Below are positions 29,900 through 55,841 of a DNA stretch of 60,000 nucleotides, in pieces. Origin of the DNA: Bolinopsis microptera. Taxonomy: Eukaryota > Ctenophora > Tentaculata > Lobata > Bolinopsidae. The position numbers and the translations under genes were made by a program. Position 1 is the first letter of the stretch, and every line of letters starts with the position of its first letter. Under the pieces are notes generated by a model. It was given only the letters and a program-made list of their open reading frames with translations, did no database searches and had not been told where the DNA came from. The stretch covers positions 7,437,246 to 7,497,245 of the forward strand of contig NC_087081.1 in assembly GCF_026151205.1 (NCBI RefSeq). Direction: 5' to 3'.

Positions 29900-30824
29900 C
29901 TAACTCACCCTTAACATTCCACCCATCAGGAAGAGGACCTGCCTACTAGTTACCATAGTTACACTACTAGTTACCATAGTTACACTACTTGTTACCATAG
30001 TTACACTACTAGTTACCATAGTTACACTACTTGTTACCATAGTTACACTACTTGTTACCATAGTTACACTACTAGTTACCATAGTTACACTACTAGGTAC
30101 CTTAGTTACACTACTAGGTACCTTAGTTACACCTCTAGGTACCATAGTTACACTACTAGTTACCATAGTTACACTACTAGTTACCATAGTTACACTAGTA
30201 GTTACCATAGTTACACTACTAGTTACCATTGACACATGACTAGTTACCATAGTTACACTACCAGTTACCATATTTACACTACTGGTTACCATAGTTACAC
30301 TACTAGGTACTATAGTTACACTATTAGGTACCTTAGTTACACTACTAGTTACCATAGTTACACCACTAGTTACCATAGTTACACTACTATTTACCATAGT
30401 TACACTACTAGTTACCATAGTTACACTACTAGTTACCATAGTTACACTACTAGTTACCATAGTTACACTACCAGTTACCATAGTTACACTACTAGTTACC
30501 ATAGTTACACTACCAGCTACCATAGTTACACTACTAGGTACCTTAGTTACACTACTAGGTACCTTAGTTACACTACTAGTTACCATAGTTACACTACTAG
30601 TTACCATGGTTACACTAGTAGTTACCATAGTTACACTACTAGTTACCATAGTTACACTACTAGTGACCATAGTTACACTACCAGTTACCATACTTACACT
30701 ACTAGTTACCATAGTTACACTACTAGTTACCATAGTTACACTATTAGTTACCATGGTTACACTACTAGTTACCATAGTTACACTAGGTTATACAGTGTAA
30801 CTCACCCTCAACATTCCACCTACC
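29900..30824. repeat. 21 bp satellite between direct repeats
   Basis: From about 29945 to 30790 a 21 bp unit containing CTAGTTACCATAGTTACA repeats about 40 times. Variants include CTAGGTACCTTAGTTACA. The array is flanked by two similar 26 bp copies of AACTCACCCT(T/C)AACATTCC (about 29900 and 30798). Its CTAGTTAC core is shared with the 18 bp satellite. Open frames (TSSVTMV repeats) follow from the period of 21. Confidence 0.95.
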
Positions 30825-34758: not shown

Positions 34759-34830
34759 AAAACATATATCCTGCTTATTCGAAGAATCTATGTAAATCTG
34801 TAAAATCCTACATTATCATTAGTAGGTCTA

Positions 34831-37800
34831 TTATTCCATCTGAATTGGCGTTTCTGCGACGATATCCTCGTTTGCTCTTACTTGCGATGCTCCCTCTATT
34901 TGATCTCCCATTTCTACTACAGTAACTTGCAATCTTAAACAAGTAGCGCCTCTTAAAAATCTAGCAGCAAAATTTCTGAAAGCTTCACCAAACAACTCTC
35001 TGAGAGTGTTATCATATAGCAAAGGGTTGATGACCGAATTGAGGGGTAAAACTATCATAGCGAAGCTTACGTACCAATCTGTAGCGTCGATTGTTTTGAG
35101 ATTGTGGAGCCCACTGATTATCATAAATGGAACCCAACAGGCAAAATCTGTGGCTATGACCAGCGCAATCCTGGTCTGTATTGCTCGGTTTCTGCGGATA
35201 GCATCTGGATTGCTACTTTGCCCAGAATTTCTGGACGATTTCCAAGATATAATGTTGATCATCAAATAAGACACGGTTATCACCAAAAAGCAGAAAAGGT
35301 TTACGCCCAACATAAGCCAAACTATCATATTTCCTTTCACGTCGATCATTTCTGTTTTCATATCCGATGTTATGCGGTTTCTTCTAGGATCATCACTACG
35401 AACAAAGTATTTGAAGAGGCACACACCATCATTTCCGTAAAAGTGTACTGCACTTCTACTCAAGCTTTGGTTGAACATTCCATCAACTTTCTTGCCAATC
35501 TCAGCCCAAGTTGTATTCGCCAACAAATTTTCAGTTTTGTAGTATGCTTGAAGAATTTTAATATGCTTCATTTTGTTTGGGAATCCGATAAATAGCTTGT
35601 AGAGTGGATCATAGAAGAAACCTTGCACAAAGTAGTCCTCTAAGGCGGGGACCAATGGTATGATTGCTACTGATATCGAAGCAGTAACGATTCCAATAAC
35701 GATCCCAATTAATTTTGCTAATGCTCTTTTATTGACAAGGGCTGGAATGCTAAGAGAGCTGTTCAGAATTCCCCACATCCTGATCAAACTCAAAAGAGTC
35801 ATCGAAAATAAAGAAAGTTGTGATCCCGCAGTGCTGATAACTCCAAGAACAGAACAAGAATTTCCTGATAACCACTCAGCTTGCTTCCTGCAATAATTCT
35901 TTCCGAAAATAATGCTGTCGAATACTGATAGTGCGATCAAGTAGACTCCTATTAGGAAATCACCCATTCCGATTACACAAATTAGTACTGTAGTGTATAG
36001 ATTGCTTCTTGTTTCAGAGTCATTAATACAACTCGCTACTTTGCACACGGTGATGATATTAAAAATTGCTGCTAAGAGGCCCAACAACCAGCAATAAAGT
36101 TTCAAAAACCAGTTTTGGAGGATTTCTTTGCCACACTCTAGATTGCATTCATCTGAAAGATCAAAACAATCAAATCTACCATCACACTTCTGGGAATGAG
36201 ATATCAAGTGCTCTTTTACTTGATCTGTCCGGTTGTTTGTATTCTCACAAACTATATGATTTGTACAGTTTTGTTCATCCGACATGTCACCACAGTCATC
36301 AACAAGGTCGCAAACTTGGCTGTACTTTATGCATTTAGTATTCTTACATTGGAAAATTGTATTTTCATATTCAACTACATCAGACATTGTCACAAAAGTC
36401 AGGTTATTGTTGTTTGCCAGAGTTTTGACTCGGTCAGGATACTGACCAAGACATGAATCATGTTCTAAAAAAGTGTCCTGAATAGGACACGTGGAGTTTA
36501 AGCATAATCCCATGCAACTGATAAATGCATAATATTCACCGAAAAGACTATTGCAGTTTACTCGAGAGGTCGGCACATTGAGCATTATATTGACACCGAA
36601 AGCAGATCCTGCTGGCCCCTGAAATTCCCGTATATGACATGTTACATTTGTAGAGTCCAATGATTTGCACAAATCTCGTCCAGCACATCTTTCATTCACA
36701 GCAGTGGTATTGATACTCGGAAAATCTCGCGAAATTCTGCAGACCTCATTTTCAATCTCACAAGAGTTCACACCATCACAAAGAAAGTCAAAATCAACAT
36801 AGCCTTGATCAGAATCTCCAGGACACAACAAAATATCCTGGCAGGTTTTGTCTCCCAAGACAACTCTATAAGCCAAATCATTTTTCTCTCCACAATATTT
36901 CCAAAGGTTTCTTTCTTCATCTTCTCCATTGAGACAATCGGTTTGGTTGTCCATTATCCATTTTATGGGTATTGTTATATTTCTATCGCCACCAAAACTA
37001 CGAGTACAGTTGAAGAATCCCACTGTTGTTAGGTGGCATATGTCACGGGTCTCATCACTATTATCTTCACAGTCACTAACTCCATCACAGAGTTTGTGTT
37101 TGTGAACAACACAGTTTGCAGATATTGACCTACAATCGTTTTCTAGATTATCGTCACAGAGACTAATCTTTTCATTGGTCAGCTTAAATTCACTTCCACA
37201 GAACACATACTTTGATACACTCGACATGAAACCATTTATCAAACAGGAACCACCCACTCTGTTTACATCAGTGCAATTTGTTTGTTCTAGATATCCGTAA
37301 CAGTACGGATAGGTGTACGAGTATTCTTCACTGTGATCAAATACACTACACCTGGTGTAGTTAAATATGGGGACTGTAATGTCCTCTCCCCTCCTCACTT
37401 TCTTATAATAATGTATACATGTTGGTATTGTGGTGTTGTTACAGTGCTTCTCATCCTCCTTGTTATAACAATCATCATCTGCATCACAAACATAGATTAC
37501 AGGTATATATTTACTGTCATATTTACTAGGACAGTTAACTCCGTATGTGTGACCCTCACATACACTCTCATCCTCACAGTAGTCAGAGTCGCATTTGTCG
37601 TCACACTGATCTTCGTTATTGCCGTTAATGAAGCTCTGTGATGATTCCTCACCAGAATTTCTGCTACAGTTCTGGTTACACGCTACAAACTGTTGTTCTT
37701 CTAGATTTGTATCGTTCCTAAAATAACCTCCACAGAAATAAATGCTCTGTAAGGTAATTTTCGTATGAAAACCACATGCCTGATAACCGTACGGGTCATT

Positions 37801-37991
37801 TTCACATACAGTAGAAACACTAAAGAGTGTGTTACTCTCAGTGCCTGTTGCATAATAAGTAGTGTTCGAATAAGCACACTTGTGAAAGTACTCTTTTTTA
37901 CTCTCATTATAACACAAGTGTTTCAAAAATCCCCCGATATTAGTCACAGTGCAGTTTTTGTTTGATTGCTGCAAAATTTCGTCAACACATC
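34831..37991 (-). CDS. LDLa-rich rhodopsin-type GPCR, terminal exon
   Basis: One exon of about 1050 codons encodes most of an LGR/relaxin-receptor-like protein. The acceptor is TTCAG|GATGTG at 37992/37991, entering in phase 1; there is no initiator ATG because upstream exons supply the N-terminus. Counting from the TTG at 37974, LDLa signatures (CD-x3-DC...DE-x-C) lie near residues 163, 296, 399, 555 and 597, among many Cys and N-glycosylation sites. Seven helices follow at about 622-646, 658-685, 706-735, 752-776, 881-906, 932-957 and 966-990. The third helix ends SLIRMWG instead of ERY/DRY, helix 6 has TDFACWVPF and helix 7 NPLLY, all LGR-like. The loop after helix 4 is unusually long (about 100 residues). 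The C-tail is short. The ligand is unknown; signalling through G proteins at the plasma membrane is inferred from the family. Confidence 0.93.
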
Positions 37992-38648
37992 CTGAACAGC
38001 GAAATGTTATTATTTAAAAAAATAGAACCAAAACCCAAAATCTGATACCCTATTATATCATTTTTATGTCGCAATGCTTATACGGGATATTTAGTATTAA
38101 TTGTATAATGAAATAAATCGTAACTTAATTAGAAAGTTTATGGATAGTTTAAGTTTTTGAGGTAAACTATACTGGAGTGGGTCCGAGCAATATACTCGTG
38201 CTACTGACACCCGGGAATGGTAATGCACGGATACAGTTAACGCTGTGTAGCAAGAGCTTCAGAGGATCGTGCCTGCTGCAGGTATGCTGAGTGGCAGATG
38301 CGACGAGCGCACTACTTCCAGCGGACATCAAGATGGCAGTCTGGCCATCAGAGTTATTCAGAACACTCTCCCTTTTAACTAGAAACATGTTGATGTCAGA
38401 GATTTTAGCCTAATTTTGCTGTAAGAACATTCTCACAGCTTAATGACTTACGGTTCTGTGTACTGAGGCACAAAACCCCCTATTTTACTCTCCCTCACTG
38501 TCTGTGTGTGGCTGCAGACTCTCAGTTCTCTTATCAGTCATTTTTGGTTGCTTGAGATGTTGGACTTGTTGCTAGTGGGCTACAGACCCCTAGCTCTCGC
38601 AAAGTACCCGTTTATTAACATTACAACGAACTAAACAATAACAGCACT

Positions 38649-39386
38649 ATGGTTTCAGCCCTTACCTCTCCTTCTGACAGTCCAGCTCATGATGATGCTA
38701 CACCTTTAAACCCTTCGGGGAGAGATGCAGCTGATGGTATCTGTGTTAAAAGAAGGTCCAACAAAAAACCAAAAATTAACAAAAATCTCAGAATCCTTTT
38801 ACCTTTTACTTACAATGTAAGATCTCTCACTGAAGAATGGAAGCAATGGGAACTTGTGTGCAAAGCCAAAGCCTTCGACATACCTGTGATTGCACTTCAA
38901 GAGCATCGTATTAAGAAGACTCCTTATATAATGCGTGATGGCTACAAGTTCCTCCTAGCATCTCCTCCCCCTAAAAGTAGAACGCTCCTCGGACTTGGCT
39001 TCCTTCTTTCCCCTTGGGCTCAACGCTGCTACATCGACCATAACGTCTTCTCAGACAGGATAATGTGTGTTTCTTTTACCGGTGAAGTTTGCACACACTT
39101 AGTTACTTGTCATTCACCCACTAATGTGTCTACAGACCTTGAAGTTGAACAGTTCTATGCAGAGTTAACTTCTTGTGTCCGATCTTTTCCACCTCATGAC
39201 GTAGTAGCTATAGCTGGCGACCTGAATGCTCACCTTGGAAAGGCACCTGCAACACCAACGCGTTTTATGAATGTACTAACGGAAACGGACAGCACCTTCT
39301 CGACTTTGCCCAAGAAAACGCGTTCACCATCGGTGCGCTAAAGTTTAACAAAAAGTATTCTAAAAAGGTGACTTGGACAGCACCAA
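38649..39386 (+). pseudogene. LINE A ORF, N-terminal and endonuclease part
   Basis: Starts at ATG 38649 (MVSALTSPS). It carries the start of an AP-endonuclease domain: YNVRSLTEEW, IALQEHRIKK (catalytic Glu region) and AGDLNAHLGK (Asp/Asn of the active site). A missing base near 39242 relative to LINE B shifts the frame after HLGK. The frame is then cut by the LINE B insertion at 39386. Confidence 0.88.
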
Positions 39387-42300
39387 GTGTTGTTGTTCCT
39401 CTCTCTGAAGTGGGTCCGAGCAGTAGACCCGCGCTACTGACACCCGGGAATGGTAATGCACGGATACAGTTAACGCCGTGTAGCTAGAGCTTCAGAGGAT
39501 CCTGCCCGATGCAGGTATGCTGAGTAGCAGATGCGACAAGCGCACTACTTCCAGCGGATATCAAGATGGCAGTCTAGCCATCAGAGTGTTTCAGAGCACT
39601 CTGAGTGTTATATTACACTCCTTACTCTTACCAGAACTCTGTTGATGTCACAGTTTCTAGTTCAACCCTGCTGTCAGAACCTCCTCACAGCTCGATGACC
39701 CCGGTCCTGTGTTCTGAGGCACATTACCCAGTACCCTTCTACCACCTTCCCTTCCTTTCTGTCTGTGTGTGGCTGCAGACCCTCAGATTAATCCTCAGTC
39801 ATTTTCCGTTGCTTACGAACATGGATATGATGCTAGTGGGCTACCAACCTCTAGCAATACCTTGGTACTCGCAAAGTTTTTTGCCACGCACCCGCTTATC
39901 TATATTTCACCGAGCTAGACAACTTAAGCACTAGGGTTCGAGCCCCTAACTCTCTTTCTGATAGCACAGCTCATGATGACGCTACACCTTTAAACCCTCC
40001 TGGGAGAGATACAGCTGATGGTATCTGTGCTAAAAGAAAGACCGACAAAAAACCAAAAATAAACAAAAAAATCTCAGAGTCCTTTTATCTTTCTACCTAC
40101 AATGTTAGATCTCTCACTGAAGAATGGAAACAGTGGGAGCTTGTATGTAAAGCTAAAACATTCAACATCCCAGTGATAGCACTACAAGAACACCGCATTA
40201 AGAAGTCTACTTGCATAATGCGCGATGGCTACAAGTTCCTCTTGGCTTCTCCTCCCCCTAAAAGTAGAACCATCCTAGGTCTAGGCTTCCTCCTTTCTCC
40301 TTGGGCCCAACGCTGCTACATTGACCACAACATATTCTCAGACAGGATCATGTCCGTTTCCTTTACTGGTGATGTACACACTCATCTAGTAACCTGTCAC
40401 TCCCCTACAAACGTTTCTACAGATCTGGAAATTGAGCAGATCTATGAAGAGCTATCTACTTGTGTACGTTCCTTTCCACCCCATGACGTAGTAGTTATAG
40501 CTGGTGACCTGAACGCTCACCTGGGTAAAGACACCTGCAACAACAACGCGTACTATGAGTGTACAAACCGAAATGGACAGCATCTCCTAGACTTCGCCCA
40601 AGAAAACACATTTACCATCGGCGGGTTAAAGTTTAGCAAGAAAGCTTCCAAAAAAGTGACTTGGACAGCACCAAATGGTCAACTGCATCAGAATGACCAC
40701 ATCCTCATTCGTTCTAAATGGCAGAACTCTTTTAAAAACTGTGAGTCATACGTCAACCCTTCAGTTCAATCTGACCATCGGATTCTTACAGCGACCATCA
40801 AACTGTCAATAAGGGCCAACATCACCCGGCCTAAGGTTATTAAGTATGACTGGGAAAAGTTAAAGAGTGATACACCACTGTTGAATGTCTTCCAACTTCA
40901 GCTCCAGAACAGGTTCAACGCCTTAATGGACATTGAAAGTGAGTCGGAAGACCTGATCCTACAAAATCAGCACATTTACACCAACATGATAAGTGCTATC
41001 AACGACACAGCTGAAAAGGTTCTTCCTAAAAGGAAGAAGACGAGCCTAACGGCCCAGATTTCGTCCAACCCTGAGTACCTAGCAGCTGTCAAGGCACGAG
41101 ATGCTGCTTTGAAGGATAGTCACAAAAGGAAGACACGAGCCGCTACTAAAGCCCTGCGTGACGCCACCCTCAAAGTCAGAGAGGTCGAGACGAGTATACA
41201 AGAACAGTTTGTGAACAACAAAATCGACCAGGTTGATCAATTGTTCATGCCGCAACCCATAAACAACCCAGGGTTTGCACCATGGCAGACAAAGTCAAAC
41301 AGTTCCGGTATCGCGTGGAAACTAATTAATGATCTGACAGATCGTAAACCTAAATCTATGTCACCTCTACCTGGATATAGAAAAAAGGCAGAACGATCAA
41401 AGGCGTGGACTGACCACTACAGCAAACTGCTCTACAACCCTGCTGACTCCACCAGAATGAACAGCATCAGAATGGACAGCATTGATGTTTCTGAACCAGA
41501 GCTCCCTATTCTGACGTCTCCATTCACAGCAGATGAACTATCAACAGCCCTTAAGCAGACAAAGGACACGTATGGTCATGACGGCATACCTTCGCTTCTT
41601 TACAAGTGTGTTGACTTGAACACCACGTTACTCTCCTTGTTCAACAACATGTTGGCCACTGGTAAAGCCCCGGAAGAACTGCTTGTCACCGCGATTCTCC
41701 CTATACCGAAAGGTGCTAAAAGGTTCTGTCCTGAAAACAGCAGAGGCATATCCATCCTTCCTGTTGCCACCAAGATCTACAACAGGCTGCTTCTCAATCG
41801 TATCAGAACTCATATTGAACCTCGCTTACGGTACAACCAGAATGGTTTCCGTCCTGGAAGGGGCACTCGTGAACAGATCTTGGCCCTTAGGCGAATAATT
41901 GAAGAAGTCATCAACTTCCAGCTCCCCTGCGTCATCTCCTTCATTGATTTCTCTAAGGCGTTTGATTGCATCTTTAGATCTCATCTTCCTAACATTCTGG
42001 CGTCCTATGGCTTCCCTAAGATAATAATCAAAGCCATTATGTCCCTTTACATCAACACCAAAGCCAAGATCATGACCCCTGAAGGTACAACTCTTGAATT
42101 CCTGACCAACCTTGGAATTCTCCAGGGCGATGTTCTTGCTCCGCTTATCTTCATTATCGTCCTGGACTTCATTCTTAGACTGGCAATAGGTCCACACGAT
42201 GGGCTTAAAGTAGGTTGTGATTACATAGCAGATTTGGACTTCGCCGATGACTTAGCTACAATCACACCCAGCTTCAGCGATAACAGCCGCCTCTGTCAAA

Positions 42301-43021
42301 GTATCTCTGATATTGCAGCCCGGTATGGTTTACTCATCAACATCGAGAAGACAAAATACATGTTCTACAACCTACCACGGCCTGTTAACTCGGATGATAG
42401 GGTCTTCATTAACAGCAACCCTCTCGAAGAAGTCCACGACTTTAAATATCTAGGATCCTACATCGCTTCAACCAGCAAAGACATCAATGTCAGGAAAGGC
42501 CTTGCATGGAAAGCACTTGAAAGTCTAGATGTTTTCTGGAAATCTGACATGTCTAGAAAGATCAAGACTAAAATTTTCAGAACTGCAGTCGAGCCTGTTC
42601 TTTTATATGGCGCAGAAACATGGACTTTGAAGAAAGCTGACACTAAAGCACTAGACGGTGTTTACACACGCATGCTACGAAGGGTCTTTGGTATCTCATG
42701 GAAATCCCACACACCTAACGCCGTCCTCTACGGAAATATCCCATCGGTGACTGATACCATCAAAACACGAAGACTTCGTTTTGCAGGGCATGTCTACCGT
42801 CTACAGGACCAACCTGCTCAGCAACTCCTTTTCTGGCAACCATCTTACGGCAAAAGGTATCGAGGACGACCACACAAGACCTTTCCGGACGTCCTTCAAG
42901 AAGATACTGGTTTAGAGCCCCACATGATACGTCTGCTCATGAGTGATAGAGATAAATGGAGACATGCGTTGACACGAAACTCGTTCCAGATTTCATCTGG
43001 ACCGACCTAGGCAGGTAGGCA
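39387..43021 (+). mobile_element. LINE B (RTE-like), nearly intact, nested in LINE A
   Basis: A 3635 bp insertion flanked by a perfect 12 bp duplication GGACAGCACCAA (39375-39386 and 43022-43033), the mark of target-primed insertion. It has about 550 bases of 5' UTR, one long ORF and a 3' end GACCTAGGCAGGTAGGCA in which the GCAGGTAG motif starts to repeat in place of poly(A). It is younger than LINE A. Confidence 0.96.
39933..43010 (+). CDS. LINE B endonuclease-reverse transcriptase polyprotein
   Basis: The frame is open from about 39909 to TAG at 43008-43010. The codon aligned with the LINE A ATG is AGG here (39933), so translation would need another start; the frame from there is about 1025 codons. 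Domains: AP-endonuclease (about residues 45-290; LQEHRIKK, GDLNAHLG, TWTAPNGQLHQNDHI and the SDHR catalytic box), a linker rich in Lys/Arg, then reverse transcriptase with NSRGISILP, IDFSKAFDCIF (first catalytic Asp), LGILQGDVLAPLIF and LDFADDLATI (catalytic pair). The C-terminal part has FKYLGSYIAS, LYGAETWTLKK and the RYRGRPHKTFPD tail. All key residues seem present. It would nick the target DNA and copy its own RNA there. The only visible defect is the lost start codon. Confidence 0.9.
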   Translation, partial: RVRAPNSLSDSTAHDDATPLNPPGRDTADGICAKRKTDKKPKINKKISESFYLSTYNVRSLTEEWKQWELVCKAKTFNIPVIALQEHRIKKSTCIMRDGYKFLLASPPPKSRTILGLGFLLSPWAQRCYIDHNIFSDRIMSVSFTGDVHTHLVTCHSPTNVSTDLEIEQIYEELSTCVRSFPPHDVVVIAGDLNAHLGKDTCNNNAYYECTNRNGQHLLDFAQENTFTIGGLKFSKKASKKVTWTAPNGQLHQNDHILIRSKWQNSFKNCESYVNPSVQSDHRILTATIKLSIRANITRPKVIKYDWEKLKSDTPLLNVFQLQLQNRFNALMDIESESEDLILQNQHIYTNMISAINDTAEKVLPKRKKTSLTAQISSNPEYLAAVKARDAALKDSHKRKTRAATKALRDATLKVREVETSIQEQFVNNKIDQVDQLFMPQPINNPGFAPWQTKSNSSGIAWKLINDLTDRKPKSMSPLPGYRKKAERSKAWTDHYSKLLYNPADSTRMNSIRMDSIDVSEPELPILTSPFTADELSTALKQTKDTYGHDGIPSLLYKCVDLNTTLLSLFNNMLATGKAPEELLVTAILPIPKGAKRFCPENSRGISILPVATKIYNRLLLNRIRTHIEPRLRYNQNGFRPGRGTREQILALRRIIEEVINFQLPCVISFIDFSKAFDCIFRSHLPNILASYGFPKIIIKAIMSLYINTKAKIMTPEGTTLEFLTNLGILQGDVLAPLIFIIVLDFILRLAIGPHDGLKVGCDYIADLDFADDLATITPSFSDNSRLCQSISDIAARYGLLINIEKTKYMFYNLPRPVNSDDRVFINSNPLEEVHDFKYLGSYIASTSKDINVRKGLAWKALESLDVFWKSDMSRKIKTKIFRTAVEPVLLYGAETWTLKKADTKALDGVYTRMLRRVFGISWKSHTPNAVLYGNIPSVTDTIKTRRLRFAGHVYRLQDQPAQQLLFWQPSYGKRYRGRPHKTFPDVLQEDTGLEPHMIRLLMSDRDKWRHALTRNSFQISSGPT

Positions 43022-43033
43022 GGACAGCACCAA

Positions 43034-45274
43034 ATGGTCAACTGCATCAGAATGACCACATCCTCATTCGCTCAAAATGGCAGAATTCACTTAAAAACTG
43101 TGAGTCATATATTAATCCCTCGGTTCAATCTGACCATCGGATTGTCAAAGCGACCATCAAGCTGTCAGTAAGGACCAACATCGTCCGACCGAAGGTTATC
43201 AAATATGACTGGGAGGAGTTAAAAAGTAACACTGCAACTTCAACAGCCTTCCAACTCCAGCTTCAACTTAATGACGCAGGCCGCAGCAGAGAAAGTACTT
43301 CTCAAAAGGAAGAAGACTAGTCTAACTGCTCAAATTTAATTCAATCCTGACTCCTGAGTACCGGGCTGCTGTCAAGGCACGAGATGCTGCGTTGAAAGAT
43401 AGTCACAAAAGGAAGACACGAGCTGCTATAAAACTATAAAAGCCCTACGTGATGCCACCCTTGAACTCCTAGGAAGGTCAAAACCAGCATACAAGAATCG
43501 TTTGTTAATAAGACAATTGATCAAGTAGATCAGCTGTTTATTCCGCAACCCGCAAACCACTCAGGGTATGCAGCATGGCAGACGAAGTCAAACAGCTCTG
43601 GTATTGCGTGGAAGCTTATAATTGACCTTACCAATCATAAGCCTAAATATATGTCTCCATTACCTGGACACAGAAACAAGGCAGATCGAGCAAAGGCGTG
43701 GACTGACCACTACATCAAACTGCTTTACAATCCTGCTGACAACATCAGAATGGGTAGCTTTGAAGTCCAAAAGCCAGAACTCCCAATTGAAACGTCACCG
43801 TTCTCAGCAGATGAACTATCTACAGCTCTCAAGCAGAATAGGGACACGTACGGTTATGACGGAATTCCTTCTCTGCTGTACAAGTGTGTTGACTTGGACA
43901 CTACTATACTATTACTGTTCAACAACATGCTAACTACTGGTAAAGCCCCGGAAGAGCTTCTTGTCACTGCCATTCTTCCTATACCCAAAGGAGCTAAAAA
44001 GTTCTTTCCTGAAAATAGCAGAGGCATCTCCATCCTCCATGTTGCCACGAAAATCTACGACAGGCTGCTTCTAAACCGAATCAGGAGCCACATAAAACCT
44101 CGCCTCCGATACAACCAGAATGGTTTCCGGCCTGGAAAAGGGACTCGTGAACAGATTCTGGCTCTTAGACGTATCATCGAAGAGGTTGTGAACTTCCAGC
44201 TACCTTGTGTCATCTCCTTCATTGATTTCTCAAAGGCCTTTGACTGCATCTTCAGATCTCACCTTCCCGACATCCTGGCTTCCTACGGTTTTCCTGATAT
44301 AATCATAAAAGCCATTATGTCACTCTACATCAACACTAAGGCTAAAATCATGACCCCTGAAGGTATAACCTTAGAATTCCTTACCAACCTCGGAATTCTC
44401 CAGGGCGATGTTTTTATCATCGTCCTGGATTTTATACTAAGACTGGCAATAGGGCCACGTGATGGGTTTAAAAATGGCAGTAACTACATTGCTGATTTGG
44501 ACTTTGCCAATGACCTAGCAACAACTACTGACAGCTTCAGCGAAAATGGCCGCCTTTGCCAAAGCATTTCTGACATAGCAGCCCGTTATGGTCTCCTTAT
44601 TAACATCGAAAAGACCAAATACATGTCCAACAACATCCCGCGACCTGTCAACTCAGACGAAATAGTCTTTATTAACGGCATCCCTTTAGAAGAAGTTCAT
44701 GACTTTAAGTACCTAGGATCTTTTATAGCCTCAACAAGCAGAGACATCAATGTCAGGAAAGGCCTCGCATGGAAAGCTTTACAGAGTCTGGATGCTTTTT
44801 GGAAATCTTATATGTCTATGAAGATCAAGACTAAGACATTTTCGAACTGCAGTAGAACCTGTTCTGCTGTATGGCGCAGAAACCTAGACTTTTAAAAAGG
44901 CTGATATTAGAGCACTAGACGGTGTTTATACTAGAATGGTACGAAGGGTCTTTGGTATCTCATGGAAATCACATACACCTAACTCCGTTCTTTATGGAAA
45001 GATACCATCGTTGACAGATACTATAAAGACACAAAGACTTCAATTTTGCAGGGCATGTCTACCGTCTACAGGACCAACCTGCCCAACAACTCCTTTTTGG
45101 CAACCATCCTACGGCCAGCGTTATCGAGGACGACCATATAAGCCCTTTCCTGATGTTCTACTCGAAGACACTGGAATGGAACCTGACCAGTTGCGTTTGC
45201 TCATGTGTGATAGAGATAAATGGAGCAAAGCGTTGACACGAAACTCGTTCCTGATTTCATCGAGATCGACCTAG
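43034..45274 (+). pseudogene. LINE A ORF, RT part, disrupted
   Basis: Homologous to LINE B from the TAPNGQLHQNDHI region to the end. It is broken by a deletion of over 100 bases around 43255-43270, several frameshifts (43320-43640 and 44840-44940) and a 15 bp deletion that removes the LAPLI part of the QGDVLAPLIF motif. The catalytic FADD box reads FAND, losing one metal-binding Asp. The longest surviving frame is 43651-44895 and the tail is 44936-45274. Confidence 0.92.
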
Positions 45275-45285
45275 GCAGGGCATAC

Positions 45286-45437
45286 CTGTATTACTAAAGC
45301 AGTGGAGCCAAATATTGTCCTCATGTTGACAGTTGTGTCTCAAAATGCGAAAATCGCAATCTGATATGTCAATATCATTCTCTTTACAGCTTACGTCATC
45401 CATTACTATTGACATGTCAGTTCGTTTCAGCCAATCC
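45286..45437 (-). CDS. Receptor gene exon: second half of SRCR domain
   Basis: A 152 bp exon between TTTAG|GGATTGG (45438/45437) and ACAG|GTATGC (45286/45285). It encodes the C-terminal half of a scavenger-receptor Cys-rich domain: MDDVSCKEND, the ISDCDF core, then HNC-x5-DNIWLHC, close to the family's usual HNCxHxEDxxVxC end. It enters in phase 2 and leaves in phase 1, fitting both neighbours. The LINE A 3' end lies directly after donor position +6. If the donor fails, reading on gives a stop after eight codons (MPCLGRSR). Confidence 0.88.
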
Positions 45438-45553
45438 CTAAATGATTGAATGGTTTGGTGCAGATTGCAGAATGTTCGGATATTCAAAATAGCAAAGAAA
45501 CAGCATTTCCATTGCAACAGAAACTAAAATGTTGACACATAAATCAAACTCAC

Positions 45554-45794
45554 TCAGGAACATATTTCATGTTTCTCGGATTACTTCCCCAGTCAGAGAA
45601 GTGATATCCAATTGTCCAGCAAAAACGCTGTGCCGAATACCAGTTAAACGCATCCTTGCAAACTGTTCCATTTTTCACCATACCAGTTTGCTTGTTAAAA
45701 ATTGTTGCGACCAAAAGACCCCCGCTATCACTAAGTTTTTTCGTTCCAGTCACCATGTTGATAAGAGATGCTCTCTCAAACTCCCACACACGCT
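45554..45794 (-). CDS. Receptor gene exon: first half of SRCR domain
   Basis: A 241 bp exon between TTTCAG|AGCGTG (45795/45794) and CCTGA|GTGAGT (45554/45553). It encodes a linker and the N-terminal half of the SRCR domain: GTVCKDAFNWYSAQRFCWTI resembles the GTVCDDxWxxxxAxVxCRxLGY pattern of the family, followed by GYHFSDW. The last codon is split as GA|G across the intron to the next exon, giving Glu-Asp-Trp. The 116 bp intron between the two SRCR halves is short. SRCR domains bind ligands or partners outside the cell. Confidence 0.87.
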
Positions 45795-46023
45795 CTGAAA
45801 CGATAATGATAACAGTGAGTAAAGAATCGTTTTTTTGAAAGAGCGAATTTACCCTCATTCAACGTTCATTGATCCTCCCATGACTGGTTTAATAATACAC
45901 GACATCGCAGTATCGGATCAAACAATGTCTAAAATATAAATTTAATTACACTTCTTAAAATAATAGCATTGTCACCCAAATCTGTACTAACTTACTATGG
46001 TACTATACTACCAAAGCACTAAC

Positions 46024-46488
46024 CTATATTATAATAAGAGGTAGTGCTGCCTGTACTAAGCTCTATTCTGCTCACTTCTCTTCCCCAATAAGTGTTCCAT
46101 TTTACATAACTACACGTTTCAGATGATGCTGTTATGTCGAGTACCTGTTTTCCATTGCAATATACTTTGATCCTGTAGCCACGTTTCTCTACTACCCAGT
46201 GTTTATCTGTTCCTGTAGGTAGACTCTGGAAGGGAGTGTAGCCTAACTGACAAAAGTGAAGCCAATACTCTACACGAGTACTGAACCGGATACCAATACC
46301 TCCTACTTCTTCTCCTTCCTCACTATAGAAATATATCCCTATCTCCTCCCCACTACCGACAGTGCTGTCTGTTCTCAGGTGCAGGTAAGAAGTATCCAGA
46401 TCAGCAGGGATGCTTTTGTAATTAACCACAGGGCTCCACATATCTGTTGATTTGTAAGTTATGATAAACTGGGTTGAAATGTTTTGAG
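46024..46488 (-). CDS. Receptor gene exon: beta-sandwich-like ectodomain
   Basis: A 465 bp exon of 155 codons, phase 1 at both ends, between GTTGCAG|CTCAAAAC (46489/46488) and ATATAG|GTTAGT (46024/46023). The sequence alternates hydrophobic strands and turns: SYLHLRTDSTVGSGEEIGIY, EVGGIGIRFS, WVVEKRGYRIKVYCNGKQVL, SYVKWNTYWGREVSRIEL. It has three Cys. It resembles carbohydrate-binding-like domains such as the farnesoic acid O-methyltransferase (FAMeT-like) module of invertebrate surface proteins, but I am not sure of that family. The exon joins in phase to the SRCR exons, so it is likely an extracellular module of the same receptor. Confidence 0.75.
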
Positions 46489-46499
46489 CTGCAACACGG

Positions 46500-46755
46500 A
46501 TCTTAGAAATGTCGATTATTAGAATTATAATATTATATAATATATATATATAATATATATATTTAATACTTTCAACACTACTATATAACAAATAATTTGA
46601 GATAACGATGTTTAATAAATGATACAAAGAATTTCGAAGATCTAATCAACACCGACTTTTAATGTGTAGGAGTACAGCAACGAAATATATATATTATATA
46701 TAAGTTTTTTAAATATTTTCAACACTACTACATAACAAATAATTTGAGGATGACT
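46500..46755. repeat. AT microsatellite and a duplicated 30-base block
   Basis: TA-rich runs at 46530-46562 and 46685-46703 are each followed by TTTTCAACACTACTA(T/C)ATAACAAATAATTTGAG-like blocks (about 46568 and 46718). This is a local direct duplication in an intron of the receptor gene. Confidence 0.8.
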
Positions 46756-48950
46756 GTAAAGGTACATTTTACCGACAATTGAAGTCAAGGCGTTGTTTTA
46801 CTGACAGTTGTGGCTGACTAACAATATATATATGAGAAGACTTGTTTATGAATATCTCAGTTATAATTAATAATTTGATTAATACGGTAGATAGAGTGAG
46901 TTATTTTCAGAGTGCAAATTTTAAAACCATAGAACCATCTTATAATGAACATTATGGAATGATAAAAGGCTTATCATGGTTGACGGTCAAAGTTACAGAA
47001 TGGAAACGTGCAATATGTATATCGTAATATACATGATTTAATATGTATTACCTAATGCTTTTCATACAAGTTACAACAAAGTCTTCATGACCATGTTATA
47101 TATTCTGGGTTTGTACAGGATATTACTCGCTCAAATTATTACAATAGCGATACATAATACTCAATAAATTTAATAGATTTGTAGTGTTGCAATTAGTTTA
47201 AGATTATATATGAATCAGTAATAACTAGCAGGAACCCGCCTAACCCTAAAGTGGTATCAAGACTCAAGAGACTAAAATAATTATTACCTAATTAATTCGC
47301 GTTTTTGACACCACTTGGGGGTCCAAATTCTGGGCACTAAAATTCTTATTCCTCGGCCAATTTTTTATTTTGTCATGCGCTGATTTGAAGGCCATTAAAG
47401 TATTTGAACCAGTCAAAAAAATATAAGTTGTATATCTTTTACGGTTATAAAATCATCACGGGAAAGTTTTAATATGTGATTTGTTACGAGCATTTTTTAT
47501 ATGTTCGTAATTATTTGTTTTTCGCCCCTCAGGAATGAATAAACCCTTTCAAGATTCCTTTACTGCATAATTAATTTTTATTTCGTCCGAGGGGCTTTCC
47601 ATAAATCATTTTTTTAGCTTATTATAACCATTGATACAAAGGCCATCATCTTTCGCCAGCTCTTTAATATCCACCTTGAAGCTACATTTTATATCCTTGA
47701 ACTACACAATATAAACTAAGGCATGTTTTAGTGTTGGCTTTTTGTCACAACAAGACTGCAACCTATAGTAACAACTATAAACAGAACCCCTTATGTCTAC
47801 TAAAAAATTTCTTCTAATCCTAATATGAGCATTGTCTCTAAAAACCTAACTGAACTAGCGTTTCGGTGTGTGCAAAAGCTTTCAGGCACGCGCATTCCTT
47901 GCCCCGTTAGTTACCTGTCCTTCCAAAACCAAACTAGCAGTCAAGGACAAAAAGTCATACACCAAATGGGCATTATATTTTATGAATTGTTTTACATCTT
48001 TTTATTCTGTAAAATGTGCAAAAATTAAATTTCTTCTTTCATTGAAAAATTTCTTGTTTCATTGAACTACTTGGTCCATTTATTGATGTTTCACTTTTCA
48101 CAGCAGTTTCCTTTTCAGAGTTTGAGTTTATATTTAGAAACTAACCATACTATTTTTTAGATTTATGTCACTCATAATGGCTCCGGCTGAAAGTACTATG
48201 ACTCATTTTATCTAGAAGATTGTAGTTTCATTGCTTCTGAAGTAGCTATCGCCTATCAGTTCGCCGGTCAATGTTGGGTATAATACTCTTGTTATTTGTT
48301 TTTTAATTCAGTTTCACACGTAAGGTGCATTCGTGTAGATTTTTTTAATTGTGTATGGAGTTGGACATGGGTGAGGTTAGCACGTGGGATTTTAGGGTTA
48401 GTGTTAGTCACGTGAGGGTTTATACGTGCATTCTTCTTTATTTTTCTTTAGAGATTTAATGGTTTAGTATTTTAGGATTTTAGTAAGTAGGGGGAGGTTT
48501 GGTCGAATTTGTCAATACCTTGAGATATTGACGAAATCGATTAAATCTTCCCGGGGGATATAGTGTAATGTGGAAGCTGGTTTCAGCAGTTTAAGTGTAG
48601 TGATATTTTAGTTAGGATATTGTAGTTTAGTGAATTAAAACCCCTATGATTAGTGTTTGATTAGATTAGATTAGTGTTGTAGATTAGGATTGGTTTTGGA
48701 GGTCACGCGGTAGTCAGGGTAGTTAGTTAGGTTATATTATTGGACACACTGAGCCAAGTGTGGCCGCGTAACGCAGTGCTGGTAATTCTCATCTGCCCCG
48801 TTACAATCAGTTCTTTGGGTGGCTTGCTAGGTGCAGTTTAAATAAGTTACCGCTGCTGAAAAACACTGTAACGTGGCCGGCGAGTGACTAGTTCCGTTTA
48901 TTGATTGACTGTAATTTATCACGTTTCGAAACTTGTTGTACGAATACACT
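46756..48950. other. Intronic or intergenic non-coding stretch
   Basis: No supported gene. A weak inverted pair GCCCCTC/GAGGGGC lies at 47525 and 47590. If the 49815-49888 exon belongs to the receptor gene, this is its intron. Confidence 0.45.
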
Positions 48951-48958
48951 GTTTCCTT

Positions 48959-49388
48959 TGTTCATACCTTACTTAGGATCCGATCAAGTCATTCGATCAT
49001 ATTGAAAGTAATACGGCACTCAGTAGCCTGTAAGAGTTAAAGTACAATAGTTACCGATACTTGAGTTATCGTATTATTCATTTATCACAGCACGTGTTGC
49101 TTGCAGAGCTAGAGGTTTGTAAGTATCCGTGTACGACACTTCATTATCGTACCCTTGTTATATCTTTTCAATTACAGTACTTCAGATTGTTCCCCTTCTC
49201 TGTACCCGTACGATACTAAAATCTCGTACCTATCGTGTTAGATTAGCGTTCGATACTTGATTATATCGAGGGTTTTGTGGGGATTTGTCGCAGGACGACT
49301 AAGTCAGTATAGTGTGTAGAGAGTAGTACTTGTGAGCAGGCAGTGTTTACCATTGGTACGCCCCGGGAGGATTAGTCTGGTCGCTACA
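48959..49388 (-). mobile_element. Possible solo LTR
   Basis: On the minus strand the segment starts TGTAGCGACC, a start common in Ty3/Gypsy LTRs, and ends GAACA. A 4 bp CCTT flanks both sides (48955-48958 and 49389-49392). A purine-rich AAGTAAAATAAGG precedes it. The short duplication can arise by chance, so this is weak. Confidence 0.3.
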
Positions 49389-49434
49389 CCTTATTTTACT
49401 TTACAACTATCCTCTGCACTGGATCCCACAACAT

Positions 49435-49581
49435 GGTAAAAGAGGTAAAACTCGGAAAAACTGGTTGTCATGTGTCCAAGAGGATGCAGCAATCTTCACA
49501 GGTGTCGATAACATCAGGATAGAAGATGCAGAACAACGAGCAACAAACAGGGTACAATGGAGAGGTCTAATACACCGGTGA
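49435..49581 (+). pseudogene. Fragment of a LINE C-terminus
   Basis: A 48-codon frame reads GKRGKTRKNWLSCVQED and later EQRATNRVQWRGLIHR before TGA. This matches the style of the last residues of LINE reverse transcriptases (GK-R-GR-x-W-x5-ED ... R-x-WR-LI). An AAGTACAAGTAAGTATAAGAA tail-like run follows at about 49623. The rest of the element is missing, as in a strongly 5'-truncated copy. Confidence 0.6.
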
Positions 49582-49814
49582 AAGGAGTTACTATGTGGTG
49601 CAGGCCACTCCAACGACCTTTTCAAGTACAAGTAAGTATAAGAAGATGGTTAGATATTATATAAAGTTTGAAATTGAAGGAGTTTGAGGTAACTAAAGGA
49701 GTAGAGGGCGCTGAAGGCAATCTTCTGAGATAGCTGGAAAACATTTTTTTCCGGAGATACCGTAATTAAGTATGTACTATTTTAGAGAATTCACAGTTCA
49801 GAGCAGTGACTCAC

Positions 49815-49888
49815 CCTGGTTTTCCTTCACAGTTTCAACATCTTCTGTGTCCTCAGTTCTCACACCATCATTAAGCACCAGCGTTAAA
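49815..49888 (-). CDS. Likely small upstream exon of the receptor gene
   Basis: A 74 bp segment between a strong acceptor (TTTTTCTACCTGCAG at 49903-49889) and a strong donor (CAGG|GTGAGT at 49815/49814). It is open as LTLVLNDGVRTEDTEDVETV followed by KENQ. It starts in phase 2 and ends in phase 1, which fits the phase-1 start of the 46488 exon and gives ENQ-Ala-Gln-Asn across the joint. The peptide is acidic with no domain. The splice sites are convincing; membership of this gene is inferred from strand, order and phase. Confidence 0.55.
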
Positions 49889-50118
49889 CTGCAGGTAGAA
49901 AAATTTAGCAACATTATATTAGGTTAACAATCACCATGGCTTTTTTAGAAGAAACAAGATTTATATCCGATTATAAGTATACCCTAACCTCTATAGCTCT
50001 ATCTATAATATACCAGGCATCTCGGGGAAAATAAAAGTGCATTGTATAGAATAAACCCGGTATAAGGAAAAATCAGATATACCCCATTAGAGTATTACAT
50101 TATTGTGCCGGGTACAGG

Positions 50119-50668
50119 ACATAAGGATGGGGAACACGAGGGCGGGGAACACGAGGGCGGGGAACAAGAGGGCGGGGAACAATAGGGCGGGGAACAAGAG
50201 AGCGGGGAACAATAGGGCGGGGAACAAGAGGGCGGGGAACAAGAGGGCGGGGAACAAGAGGGCGGGGAACAAGAGGGCAAGGAACAAGAGGGCAAGGAAC
50301 AGGAGGGCGGGGAACAAGAGGGCGGGGAACACGAAGGCGGGGAACAAGAGAGCGGGGAACACGAGGACGGGGAACAAGAGGGTGAGGAACAAGAGGGCGG
50401 GGAACAAGAGGGCGGGGAACAAGAGGGCGGGGAACAAGAGGGCGGGGAACACGAGGGCGGGGAACACGAGGGCGGGGAACAAGAGGGCGGGGAACAAGAG
50501 GGTGGGGAACAAGAGGGCGGGGAACACGAAGGCGGGGAACACGAAGGCGGGAAAAAAGAGGGCGGGGAACAAGAGGGCGGGGAACAAGAGGGCGGGGAAT
50601 AATAGGGCGGGGAACAAGAGGGTGGAGAATATACGGGCGGGGAACAAGAGGGCGGGGAACACGAAGTT
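50119..50668. repeat. Purine-rich 15 bp satellite
   Basis: About 36 copies of GGGCGGGGAACAAGA and variants (ACACGA, AATAGG, GGGCAAGG). The plus strand is nearly all purine with GGG-C-GGGG runs in most units. All three frames on one or both strands stay open because the period is 15, giving AGNKR or PALLF repeats that are not genes. Confidence 0.96.
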
Positions 50669-51064
50669 GGCGAACACAGCCCTTGTGTTTGGTTCCAATT
50701 GTGTGGTATTGTCATGGAATAAAGCTCAACATGTAGTCGACACAAAATTCGATAAGAGCTATTATGATAAATCACATTTCTTCCACAAAACTAGCTAATT
50801 AACTTAAAGTTTGGGGAAAAGAAGGGGCCGATATATCGAGGTACTCGATATAGAGTGGCACGGTATATAGATTATAGACTTAGAGAGGTTAGCTTGTAAA
50901 ACGTCGGTCTGTTCATTCATAATTCATGATAGGAGGTAGTACGCGGCACAAGCCATGCGTTACGGAGTAAGTTATTTAAATTGATAGATCATTTCCTTTT
51001 GTTTGGAAAATGAATACACTGGGACGGTCCACTCAACCTAATTTTTATTTAAAATGTATATATA

Positions 51065-52037
51065 CAGGGTGAGTTGAAAATAGTGTGTAGAATGTAAAAA
51101 TCGATAATTTTTTATGAAGGAGCAAATTTTGAAAGGTGAATTGCTATCAGTTCATAAACGTTACAAATTTCATTCTTGCCTCTCATTTGATTCTAACTCA
51201 TAATTTGGTTGATTTTTGGCAGTTTTCCAAAAATTCGTAAATTCGTCCTAATGGGGTTCTCAAATCGCGTGCCCTGAAAATCGAGTCTAAAAATCTATCT
51301 TCTTCTACATTTTTTGAGCAATCACCCTGAAACTTTCAGGATATGTTTTAGGGATCATTTAGAAGATATGAGCCGGACAGAATTTTGAGAGAGGCCTTTA
51401 AAAAAATTTTATTCGATTTTGAAAATCGTGGACCTCGAAAAACCATCAAAAAACGAGGTCCAAGATTTTAAAAATCGAATGAAAAATGTTTAAAGGCCTA
51501 TCTCAAAATGTTGTCGGGCTCATCTCTTCTAAATGATCCCTAGAACATATCCTGAAAGTTTCAGGGTGATTTCTCAAAAAATGTATGAGAAGATAGATTT
51601 TTAGACTCGATTTTCAGGGCACGCGATCAAAAATCGCTCGCGCAATACAATTACCACACACGCGCTGACCTTTGACCGGCATTAATTTCGGCTAGGAACG
51701 ATATTTTTCCACGGGATCAAAAGCATCTGATAGATATTGCTCCCCTCTATCAGAAACAACTAAAAAGTCGATTTTGAGAACATTTCCACGAAGACCCCCC
51801 CGCCCCCTTAATACAGTCAAGTCGGCTATAGACAATTGTCTTACACGTTATCAACATGTCCTATCAACAATAAAGGACAATGGGTTGAGCAAATTAATAC
51901 TTATTAAGTATTTTTATTGCATTATTATAATATTTAAATATTTTCATTACCTAAATATGCAAAAATTAAGTGGAAATTTCATTTGTCAAAAAAATTAGAG
52001 CCATTTACTTTCTACACACTATTTTCAACTCACCCTG
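51065..52037. mobile_element. Mariner-like MITE, 973 bp, with internal palindrome
   Basis: The inverted ends CAGGGTGAGTTGAAAATAG continue to TGTGTAGAA (28 bp, perfect), followed by a looser GTAAA. A TA dinucleotide flanks each side (51063-51064 and 52038-52039), as for Tc1/mariner. In the middle lies a second inverted repeat with arms of about 174 bases (51264-51437 and 51454-51627) around a 16-base loop. No transposase frame is present. Confidence 0.9.
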
Positions 52038-52039
52038 TA

Positions 52040-52093
52040 CTTTGAAGAATAAGAGGTTCGGGTATATATACCCGAACCTCTTATTCTTCAAAG
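52040..52093. repeat. Perfect 54 bp palindrome
   Basis: CTTTGAAGAATAAGAGGTTC followed by GGGTATA, then the exact reverse complement with no spacer, centred at 52066/52067. It begins right after the TA that flanks the mariner-like MITE. Confidence 0.98.
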
Positions 52094-52574
52094 TGTTAAT
52101 TAATTAAGTTAACTTGAATAGAAAAATGTGTTTTATTTGAGAAAAGACACATATATATCAGTATTTCTTACCCTATCAAAGATGAGATCACGAAGCACCT
52201 CATATTGTCGTTGTAAAAAGTGCTCCTAAATTCTCATCAACTCTAGCAATCTTGAAGAAGTAAAATAAAACATAGCAAACAGTCGAATAAACTTAATAAG
52301 TTAAATTAAAGACACATAGCCCATAGGAAGGAATGATGGGTAGCGGGACGGTAAACAGTTTGTCAATTTGGAGGGTAGGGTCACGTGATGGGAGAAGGAA
52401 TATGATTCATAATTGGATAAATAAGTTTTATTAATTATAGAGGAATAATTTCGTACAATGGTATGTTTATTTGCATTAATCTTAATGAGTTAATGGAGGG
52501 CGCAAAATGGAGGGTTCATTCAACTATTTGGAAATCGTGAAATGGAGTGTTCTATAGATGTGGATACTGGCGGG

Positions 52575-52700
52575 GAGGTGATACATGTTTGTTTACTTTA
52601 ATAGTAAGCCCCTGTTAGGCGGGTTGAAGAGGTGATACATGTTTGTATACATTTTTAGGGTAAGCCCCTGTTTGGCGGGTTGAAGAGGTGATACATATTT
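52575..52700. repeat. 54-56 bp direct repeats
   Basis: GAGGTGATACAT recurs at 52575, 52629 and 52685, the first two followed by TAAGCCCCTGTT(A/T)GGCGGGTTGAA. The stretch ACTGGCGGGGAGGTGATACA at the start resembles the arm of the MITE at 34183. Confidence 0.9.
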
Positions 52701-55705: not shown

Positions 55706-55841
55706 CTTATAATACTGTAATTATATAGATTATAGGTGTTATTAAAGTATGCCTAAATTATAAGCGTAAAATAAACCTTGTCATCATGTGAGCAGTCCAA
55801 ACTTTACGAAAACAACCTAACTTTGTACCGGGGAGCGGATC

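Follow-up and report, generated by a model that had tools for sequence, protein, structure and literature searches.

Relaxin receptors (RXFP1/2, type C LGRs) combine a class A, LGR-type seven-transmembrane (7TM) domain with LDLa in the ectodomain. The single LDLa of RXFP1 is described as an N-terminal module that is tethered to leucine-rich repeats (LRRs) and is required for activation (PMC4837482). GRL101-type LGRs, which the available description classes among the leucine-rich-repeat receptors, join several LDLa modules to an LGR 7TM, and the same source describes LRR-bearing LGRs from Mnemiopsis, giving 7–26 LRRs for comb jelly and sponge together (PMC4079206). SRCR domains are reported in the ectodomains of sponge and amphioxus 7TM receptors of the adhesion class (PMC4302439; PMC2246102). 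The ctenophore Mnemiopsis leidyi has an expanded SRCR repertoire that includes SRCR/LDL combinations; where the Fig. 3 legend of that report deals with SRCR, no 7TM is named (PMC11797021). Eight of the 12 differentially expressed SRCR genes reported there are up on Vibrio re-exposure, in a set whose kinship with the family described here is not established (PMC11797021). A further report gives 538 full-length predicted GPCRs and predicted peptide-GPCR pairs for M. leidyi (PMC9525235).

We analysed a 60,000-nucleotide stretch of the Bolinopsis microptera genome, hereafter the window. The receptor encoded there shares the LGR-type 7TM with the relaxin receptors, the GRL101 type and the ctenophore LGRs, and LDLa with the first two. 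It differs from the relaxin receptors in placing several LDLa modules by TM1, in its SRCR and beta-rich (beta-) domains, and in that no LRR was detected. The presence of SRCR/beta-domain cassettes with no detected LRR likewise separates it from GRL101, and the LRR-bearing ctenophore LGRs are set apart from it by their description only. Unlike the sponge and amphioxus SRCR receptors it matches 7tm_1, with neither GPS nor 7tm_2 among its matches. No description of an SRCR class A receptor was found in the open-access literature searched, largely at listing level.

Gene structure in the window

The features of the locus are as follows.

34831..37991, minus strand: last coding exon, with a Cys-rich ectodomain, about five LDLa modules, the LGR-type 7TM, tail and stop (Pfam, PDB, acceptor position)
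38173..45282, plus strand: nested non-LTR retrotransposon insertion that occupies the intron between the SRCR and 7TM exons, absent from loci L001, L002 and L004
45286..45437, minus strand: SRCR exon 2, the membrane-proximal SRCR (profile match on the joined exons; found with its splice sites in paralogs)
45554..45794, minus strand: SRCR exon 1 (both splice sites exactly where expected in paralogs)
46024..46488, minus strand: exon of the unnamed beta-rich domain, phase 1-1, the fastest-evolving module
49815..49888, minus strand: putative 74-bp upstream exon, weak (open in phase, AG/GT)
34779..52647, no strand assigned: segment shared, with gaps, with a duplicate at C10:1.587-1.601 Mb (blastn); its limit at 34.8 kb is the end of the fetched piece

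The first-pass annotation had proposed five minus-strand exons with matching phases, and the coordinates, AG/GT sites and phases all agree with it. The joined exons form a single open frame of 1,363 residues without a stop. Introns between domains are phase 1, and the intron within the SRCR is phase 2. For the 74-bp exon, a counterpart was seen in a single near-identical duplicate (L010) and in no other locus, and support for this exon is weak. It is the only upstream exon candidate found for the window copy; no SRCR or beta-domain exon turned up in the 23 kb that precede its beta-domain exon. L001, L003, L009 and other loci do have an upstream SRCR exon. Searches of the window for tRNAs and with Rfam returned nothing.

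Receptor class

Pfam profiles were run on the joined window exons, and the SRCR, LDLa and 7TM parts named in the first-pass annotation all scored over their curated cut-offs. SRCR gave 35.4 bits against a cut-off of 26.1, placing the domain in the SRCR superfamily; LDLa (Ldl_recept_a) gave 47.7 bits over five stretches; and 7tm_1 gave 41.9 bits against 30.5, as expected of class A. The 7tm_1 profile is also above cut-off in L008, L025, L028, L029 and L030. Seven residues typical of the class A core (D677, R737, W952, P954, N988, P989 and Y992) are invariant across nine paralogs. We take these to be the D of TM2, the R of TM3, the W and P of TM6 and the NPxxY of TM7. The acidic residue preceding the R of TM3, judged by eye, is not kept.

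Compared with solved structures (PDB only), the nine best 7TM matches are LHCGR, RXFP1, TSHR and FSHR chains. LHCGR scores E 6.2e-13 (51.9 bits) and RXFP1 E 1.1e-12 (51.0 bits). Entry 8w1z, named only as a family-1 GPCR, follows at 2.2e-7, and the first receptor named as anything other than LGR type or family-1 GPCR is at 4.5e-5. By these matches the 7TM is LGR-type class A. The likeness to relaxin-type receptors noted earlier stands for the LGR-type 7TM and for LDLa, but the label is too narrow, since there is little to choose between the scores of the LH receptor and relaxin receptor 1 and the LDLa modules lie next to the membrane. They directly precede TM1 rather than sitting at the far N terminus, so the type C order of an N-terminal LDLa followed by LRRs is not what was found. 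The earlier remark that no LRRs are seen also held up. An LGR ectodomain would carry LRRs, but Pfam listed no LRR family at E ≤ 1 for the window exons and none at E ≤ 0.1 in six other 7TM open reading frames. Neither 7tm_2 nor GPS/GAIN, the marks of an adhesion GPCR, is among the Pfam matches of the window exons and the other 7TM open reading frames.

A family of related loci

At least 194 related loci are present in this one comb-jelly genome. An iGluR of the genome, searched against the PDB, has Mnemiopsis ML032222a as its top match, though the two are distant relatives. The beta-domain, SRCR exon 1, SRCR exon 2 and the LDLa/7TM exon follow one another in the same order and on the same strand in 13 of the 22 7TM loci read, two of which rest on adjoining pieces (L010 with L011, L016 with L033). 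In 10 of the 13 the 7TM exon follows after less than 600 bp, and only about 190 bp separate the SRCR and 7TM parts in L001. The fetched piece lacks the full order in the other nine loci, seven of them without a beta-domain match there. Ten of the 22 have the acceptor of the 7TM exon exactly where expected. Frames are damaged in four of the 13 full-order loci: a stop interrupts an SRCR exon in L003 and in the second L016 cassette, and the 7TM frame is broken in L013, L033 and L031 (L016 and L033 being one locus). L024 holds SRCR (41.7 bits) and LDLa together with the initial portion of the 7TM in one uninterrupted frame with no intron; its 7TM is incomplete because the 3' end runs into Ns. Cassettes are repeated three times in L031/L032 and twice in L016, and other family members have Cys-rich repeats in place of the SRCR/beta-domain cassettes.

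Of 103 7TM exons, 25 have a beta-domain match less than 20 kb upstream on their own strand, compared with none upstream on the opposite strand and one downstream. The count draws on 103 7TM rows out of 104 and on 149 beta-domain matches out of 151, since it omits unlisted rows as well as the second pieces of one locus. The linkage exceeds chance: 1,000 random placements, made with rounded guesses for the sizes of some contigs and leaving out matches on small contigs, gave a mean of 0.57 and a maximum of 5. The recurrence of order and strand among relatives and the L024 fusion bear out the claim that one gene joins SRCR and LDLa to the 7TM. The chimera is very probably real, and SRCR and 7TM very likely belong to one protein.

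SRCR exons and the beta-domain

Both splice sites of the window-type SRCR exon 1 are exact in 14 of 15 complete copies; in the exception, L031, the donor is shifted by 6. The beta-domain has at least 151 matches in its own genome, some holding stops, and a Cys and a Trp are invariant across 13 members. Of 14 copies, 8, among them that of the window, have an in-frame acceptor at the homologous position. The acceptor of L009 sits 9 nt further in, and none was seen at the homologous place in L001, L014, L004, L006 and L007, although an alternative in-frame AG lies 51 nt upstream in L014. The beta-domain is likely to be included in the transcript of the window copy.

The beta-domain had no significant Pfam or PDB profile match. 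The best PDB profile match was a protein-arginine deiminase (E 0.11, not significant); among the 13 members searched with Pfam, one matched Laminin_G_3 at E 0.029 and one DUF3242 at 0.014. The first-pass annotation had called 46024–46488 a beta-sandwich and FAMeT-like. A single-sequence structure model of the window copy alone is all beta with 12 strands and of low confidence (pLDDT 57), and Foldseek found nothing at E ≤ 0.001. Its best Foldseek match, a galectin (E 0.049, TM 0.22), is only a hint of a galectin/ConA-like sandwich. The FAMeT label (Methyltransf_FA, PF12248) was abandoned: Pfam listed that family for none of the 13 members at E ≤ 10, a setting at which HMMER filters drop most matches above about 0.1. 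A genome search with PF12248 also gave no match, but its controls were equally silent, so that this falls short of proving absence.

Rates of evolution

Among recent copies the 7TM is conserved and the beta-domain is the fastest-changing module. Omega is 0.18–0.22 for the 7TM and 0.57–0.58 for the LDLa ectodomain (four sequences each), 1.6–1.8 for SRCR exon 1 (six sequences, not significant) and 2.1–2.3 for the beta-domain (seven sequences; 1.06–2.3 over all copy sets). The seven beta-domain sequences gave an MG omega of 2.27 (2dlnL 12.4, significant) and an NG86 ratio of 1.81 (bootstrap P 0.0025), and six gave an omega of 2.11 (p 0.0011). A core region picked post hoc, after the alignment was viewed, had an omega of 3.4, as against 1.5 outside it (p 0.16). 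Restriction to the 86 codons away from gaps gave 1.46, not significant. Copies with the homologous acceptor intact gave 1.49 (p 0.17), and the three with an altered acceptor 2.12 (p 0.011). A second set, which includes copies with broken SRCR exons, gave 1.06 (p 0.86) with pairwise ratios of 2.00, 0.75 and 1.12, and the window against L003 and L009 gave 0.51–0.55. Stop codons were skipped in these counts, and the second set kept L003 and the second cassette at C10:10.25 Mb, which have SRCR-exon stops; none of the 10 beta-domain copies in the two sets holds a stop. Because significance varies with the copies used, we do not claim that positive selection on the beta-domain is shown. This domain may instead be under relaxed constraint.

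Interpretation

An upstream SRCR/beta-domain protein next to a separate LDLa/LGR-type GPCR would account for the 7.3 kb, with a retrotransposon, that lie between the two parts in the window, and for the many beta-domain matches with no listed 7TM exon nearby. Such a pair of genes is very improbable given the recurring order and strand, the short interval in L001 and the single L024 frame. A different possibility is that the family is functional but that the copy in the window is a duplicate in decay, without 5' exons and with an intron filled by transposons, and gives no working receptor. This would fit the failure to find, within 23 kb, the upstream SRCR exon that L001, L003, L009 and others have, as well as the sister copy L013 with its broken 7TM frame and the similarity to the near-identical copy, which truly ends near 52.6 kb within the fetched DNA. 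Nevertheless, each of the four main exons is intact, as are the splice sites, with no stop in frame, and in the 7TM part five synonymous and five non-synonymous changes distinguish it from its 99% copy. We regard decay of the window copy as a minority reading, though a serious one.

The beta-domain might instead be a relaxed and often skipped exon, its symmetric 1-1 phase permitting this, rather than a diversified binding domain. The five copies lacking an acceptor at the homologous place, the omegas near 1 (the intact-acceptor and second sets) and the stops in some genomic matches point that way; the invariant Cys and Trp, the stop-free copies of the dN/dS sets and the low omega of the window against L003 and L009 point against it, leaving this account unlikely. 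We are similarly doubtful that these are relaxin-type peptide or hormone receptors with an endogenous ligand, their copy number reflecting ordinary duplication and not recognition diversity. The LGR-type 7TM, the need for LDLa in RXFP1 activation (PMC4837482) and the peptide-GPCR pairs predicted in M. leidyi (PMC9525235) favour that view, against which stand the number of loci, the failure to detect any LRR, the changing head cassettes and a distal domain that evolves far faster than the 7TM.

We think it probable that the window encodes a member of an expanded ctenophore class A GPCR family with an SRCR-headed architecture, acting as recognition receptors; on the recognition role taken by itself our judgement is evenly poised. 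The signalling core is the LGR-type 7TM with several LDLa modules directly ahead of TM1. It is fronted by phase-1 exons that form exchangeable cassettes of SRCR, beta-rich domain and SRCR, of which some loci have two or three. The head may recognise a surface or soluble ligand of microbial, prey or self origin. In the manner of the relaxin receptor 1 LDLa, the membrane-proximal LDLa modules would be repositioned against the extracellular loops on binding, with activation of a G protein as the outcome. Duplication and cassette change may diversify what is recognised. A family of this size suggests an extensive repertoire for recognition; we found nothing of the kind described in the open-access literature searched. 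More tentatively, ctenophores may have a large recognition system of their own, with changing SRCR/beta-domain and other Cys-rich cassettes mounted on an LDLa/LGR core. Recognition of self or non-self would in that case be coupled directly to G-protein signalling, and variety would arise as cassettes are duplicated, symmetric exons are skipped and diversifying selection acts on the distal domain.

If the SRCR-headed family is real, a lineage among the deepest in the animal tree possesses a large family of class A GPCRs that have scavenger-receptor-type heads rather than leucine-rich repeats, and that also form a candidate recognition repertoire. The LGR membrane core and LDLa would then be separable from LRRs, which bears on the origin of relaxin- and glycoprotein-hormone-type receptors.

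Large intron

The 7.1-kb intron between the SRCR and 7TM exons of the window is a nested retrotransposon insertion. Its transposon origin, like the family of related loci, had been missed in the first-pass annotation. The inner retrotransposon copy lies at about 39390–43021 and is absent from the copies at C10:1.59 Mb and C13:4.27 Mb.

Exon organization of the window gene

The first-pass annotation joined five minus-strand exons into one receptor gene. The joining holds at the level of reading phase: phase 1 introns separate the domains, and a phase 2 intron interrupts the SRCR domain.

49815-49888, minus strand: putative 74-bp exon, AG/GT sites
46024-46488, minus strand: beta-domain exon, AG/GT sites
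45554-45794, minus strand: SRCR exon 1, AG/GT sites
45286-45437, minus strand: SRCR exon 2, AG/GT sites
34831-37991, minus strand: LDLa/7TM exon, AG/GT sites

The joined frame encodes 1,363 residues and is open up to the stop at 34831. Pfam matches above the cut-off confirm the annotated domains, with SRCR at 35.4 bits, 7tm_1 at 41.9 bits and LDLa in five stretches, and the reported absence of leucine-rich repeats (LRRs) was borne out at E<=1. The ectodomain, excluding the 74-bp exon, has 904 residues, 63 cysteines and 19 N-glycosylation motifs. Related loci of the same genome were read as pieces (L001 to L033). At 34831-34840 the window's frame extends three residues (QME) past the stop of L002, L004 and L007, whose frames end after ETPI; L001 continues as the window does.

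The window 7TM is LGR-type as judged by sequence. A phmmer search of PDB ranked the LH receptor (6.2e-13) and relaxin receptor 1 (1.1e-12) highest, then the TSH and FSH receptors, followed by a family-1 GPCR (8w1z, named only so; 2.2e-7), the mu-opioid receptor (4.5e-5) and LGR4 (1.3e-4). Core residues are conserved in nine paralogs. The earlier description as LGR-like therefore stands for the 7TM, and the gene is not filed as a full LGR or relaxin receptor because the defining LRRs of the LGR family were not detected. Nor was the gene assigned to the adhesion receptors, since GPS and 7tm_2 are absent among the Pfam matches.

SRCR and 7TM exons recur together in related loci

The window belongs to a genome of 264.65 Mb that includes 13 large contigs; an iGluR from this genome has its nearest PDB match in a Mnemiopsis entry, though as a distant relative, which points to a ctenophore. 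The 7TM-exon loci examined number 22, the window among them. The order beta-domain, SRCR exon 1, SRCR exon 2, LDLa/7TM exon on one strand was found in 13 of the 22 (two based on adjoining pieces). Spacing before the 7TM exon is below 600 bp in 10 of these 13, and the L001 introns are ~220, ~120 and ~190 bp. A same-strand beta-domain lies upstream within 20 kb of 25 of 103 7TM exons, compared with none on the opposite strand and one downstream, counting the beta-domain matches listed, which are those nearest the window's. Random placement (1,000 runs) gave a mean of 0.57 and a maximum of 5. Across the union of at least 194 loci, again among the beta-domain matches listed, the linkage counts are 25 and 1, and 21 of the 26 7TMs most similar to the window's have a linked beta-domain. 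In L024, SRCR (41.7 bits), LDLa and 7TM share one uninterrupted frame until a run of Ns. The order, the strand-specific linkage and the L024 frame together mean that the SRCR-7TM joining has support beyond splice prediction alone.

In L027 the 7TM exon, at 38% identity to the window's, is still preceded by a beta-domain at 33% and a single SRCR exon at 24% (E 0.001), which Pfam SRCR matches as well. L005 has its SRCR exons within the piece and a beta-domain match directly upstream in the genome search. We did not find the beta-domain in the fetched pieces of L008, L024, L025, L026, L028, L029 and L030. Frames are damaged in 4 of the 13 full-order loci; stops occur in SRCR exons of L003 and the second L016 cassette, and 7TM-exon frame breaks in L013, L033 (the locus of L016) and L031. 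The broken copies are consistent with birth and death of genes.

Three genome searches with different 7TM queries identified at least 194 distinct loci, a lower bound since each scored 103-112 of 547-578 candidates. The 538 predicted full-length GPCRs reported for M. leidyi (PMC9525235) make such a number plausible. L031/L032 carry three SRCR-beta-SRCR cassettes and L016 carries two. The window gene itself may be a truncated family member: an upstream SRCR exon was not found in the 23 kb upstream of its beta-domain exon, a counterpart of the 74-bp exon was seen only in a near-identical duplicate, and similarity to that duplicate stops near 52.6 kb. Other LGR-type receptors are headed by Cys-rich repeats, two in L008 (30-3629) and six in L030 (2646-7100), with the pattern W-DGRCG...NPCC...CG-T...C-C--CVDY and without a Pfam match; by eye, we take them to be hevein-like.

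The beta-domain is an unnamed, rapidly changing module

The label 'FAMeT-like' was not retained for the beta-domain: PF12248 gave no match in the genome search, where controls were silent too, and no Pfam family or PDB profile matched significantly. Single-sequence structure prediction of 46024-46488 gave an all-beta, poor model without significant fold matches. The beta-domain is an unnamed module. It has at least 151 matches in the genome, many without a listed 7TM nearby and some with stops. Tandem matches at C4:15.50 Mb, C6:1.62-1.64 Mb and C13:11.60 Mb (29-38% identity to the window's) have no listed 7TM within 20 kb and are perhaps a separate protein family.

Comparison of four closely related copies whose 7TM exons are intact gave dN/dS values of 0.18 (7TM), 0.61 (LDLa region) and 1.60 (beta-domain). 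Maximum likelihood gave a beta-domain omega of 2.1-2.3 in seven copies. Synonymous change was 0.083-0.090 in the beta-domain compared to 0.077-0.095 in the 7TM exon, so the high ratio is not explained by low dS. As counter-evidence, omega was 1.49 (p 0.17) using only copies whose acceptor is intact at the position matching the window's, 2.12 in three copies with an altered acceptor, and 1.06 in a second set. The rate contrast between beta-domain and 7TM is firm, and diversifying selection on the beta-domain is possible. By eye, L001 and L014 have lost the AG of the beta-domain acceptor, and in L004 it has shifted out of phase; an alternative in-frame AG lies 51 nt upstream in L014. Skipping of this symmetric exon could occur without a change of frame.

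Comparison with known receptors

The LDLa module of relaxin receptor 1 is regarded as what actually activates the membrane domain, under the drive of hormone binding (PMC4837482); here several LDLa modules stand immediately before TM1. The SRCR/beta-domain head would bind a putative ligand and, once bound, would move the LDLa modules against the loops. Our open-access literature search found no SRCR class A receptor; the SRCR-bearing GPCRs it returned were adhesion-class, from sponge and amphioxus (PMC4302439, PMC2246102). LRR-bearing LGRs are reported in Mnemiopsis (PMC4079206). A Mnemiopsis immune-gene paper describes SRCR expansion and SRCR/LDL combinations, and no 7TM is named where the legend to its Fig. 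3 deals with SRCR (PMC11797021). A choanoflagellate GPCR survey lists Rhodopsins with LRR and LDLa; "SRCR" is absent from its main text.

Insertions and repeats

The segment 38173-45282 in the large intron is not present in L001, L002 or L004. It consists of two non-LTR retrotransposon copies on the plus strand, one nested in the other; the type and the long endonuclease/RT-like frames of both were assigned by eye. The inner copy (~39390-43021) has an exact 12-base repeat at its ends, is missing from close duplicates at C10:1.59 Mb and C13:4.27 Mb, and is the younger of the two. The donor adjoining the insert remains GT. Other features of the window are as follows; the Gag-like frame is perhaps an LTR element.

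3340-5560, minus strand: reverse-transcriptase-like frames, non-LTR type by eye
19396-20337, minus strand: Gag-like open frame, 313 residues, by eye
7601-9592, 15592-17212, 25498-26664, 27908-29762: 18-bp minisatellite, four arrays of one common unit
29943-30785: 21-bp repeat array
50129-50661, 54666-55706: 15-bp repeat arrays
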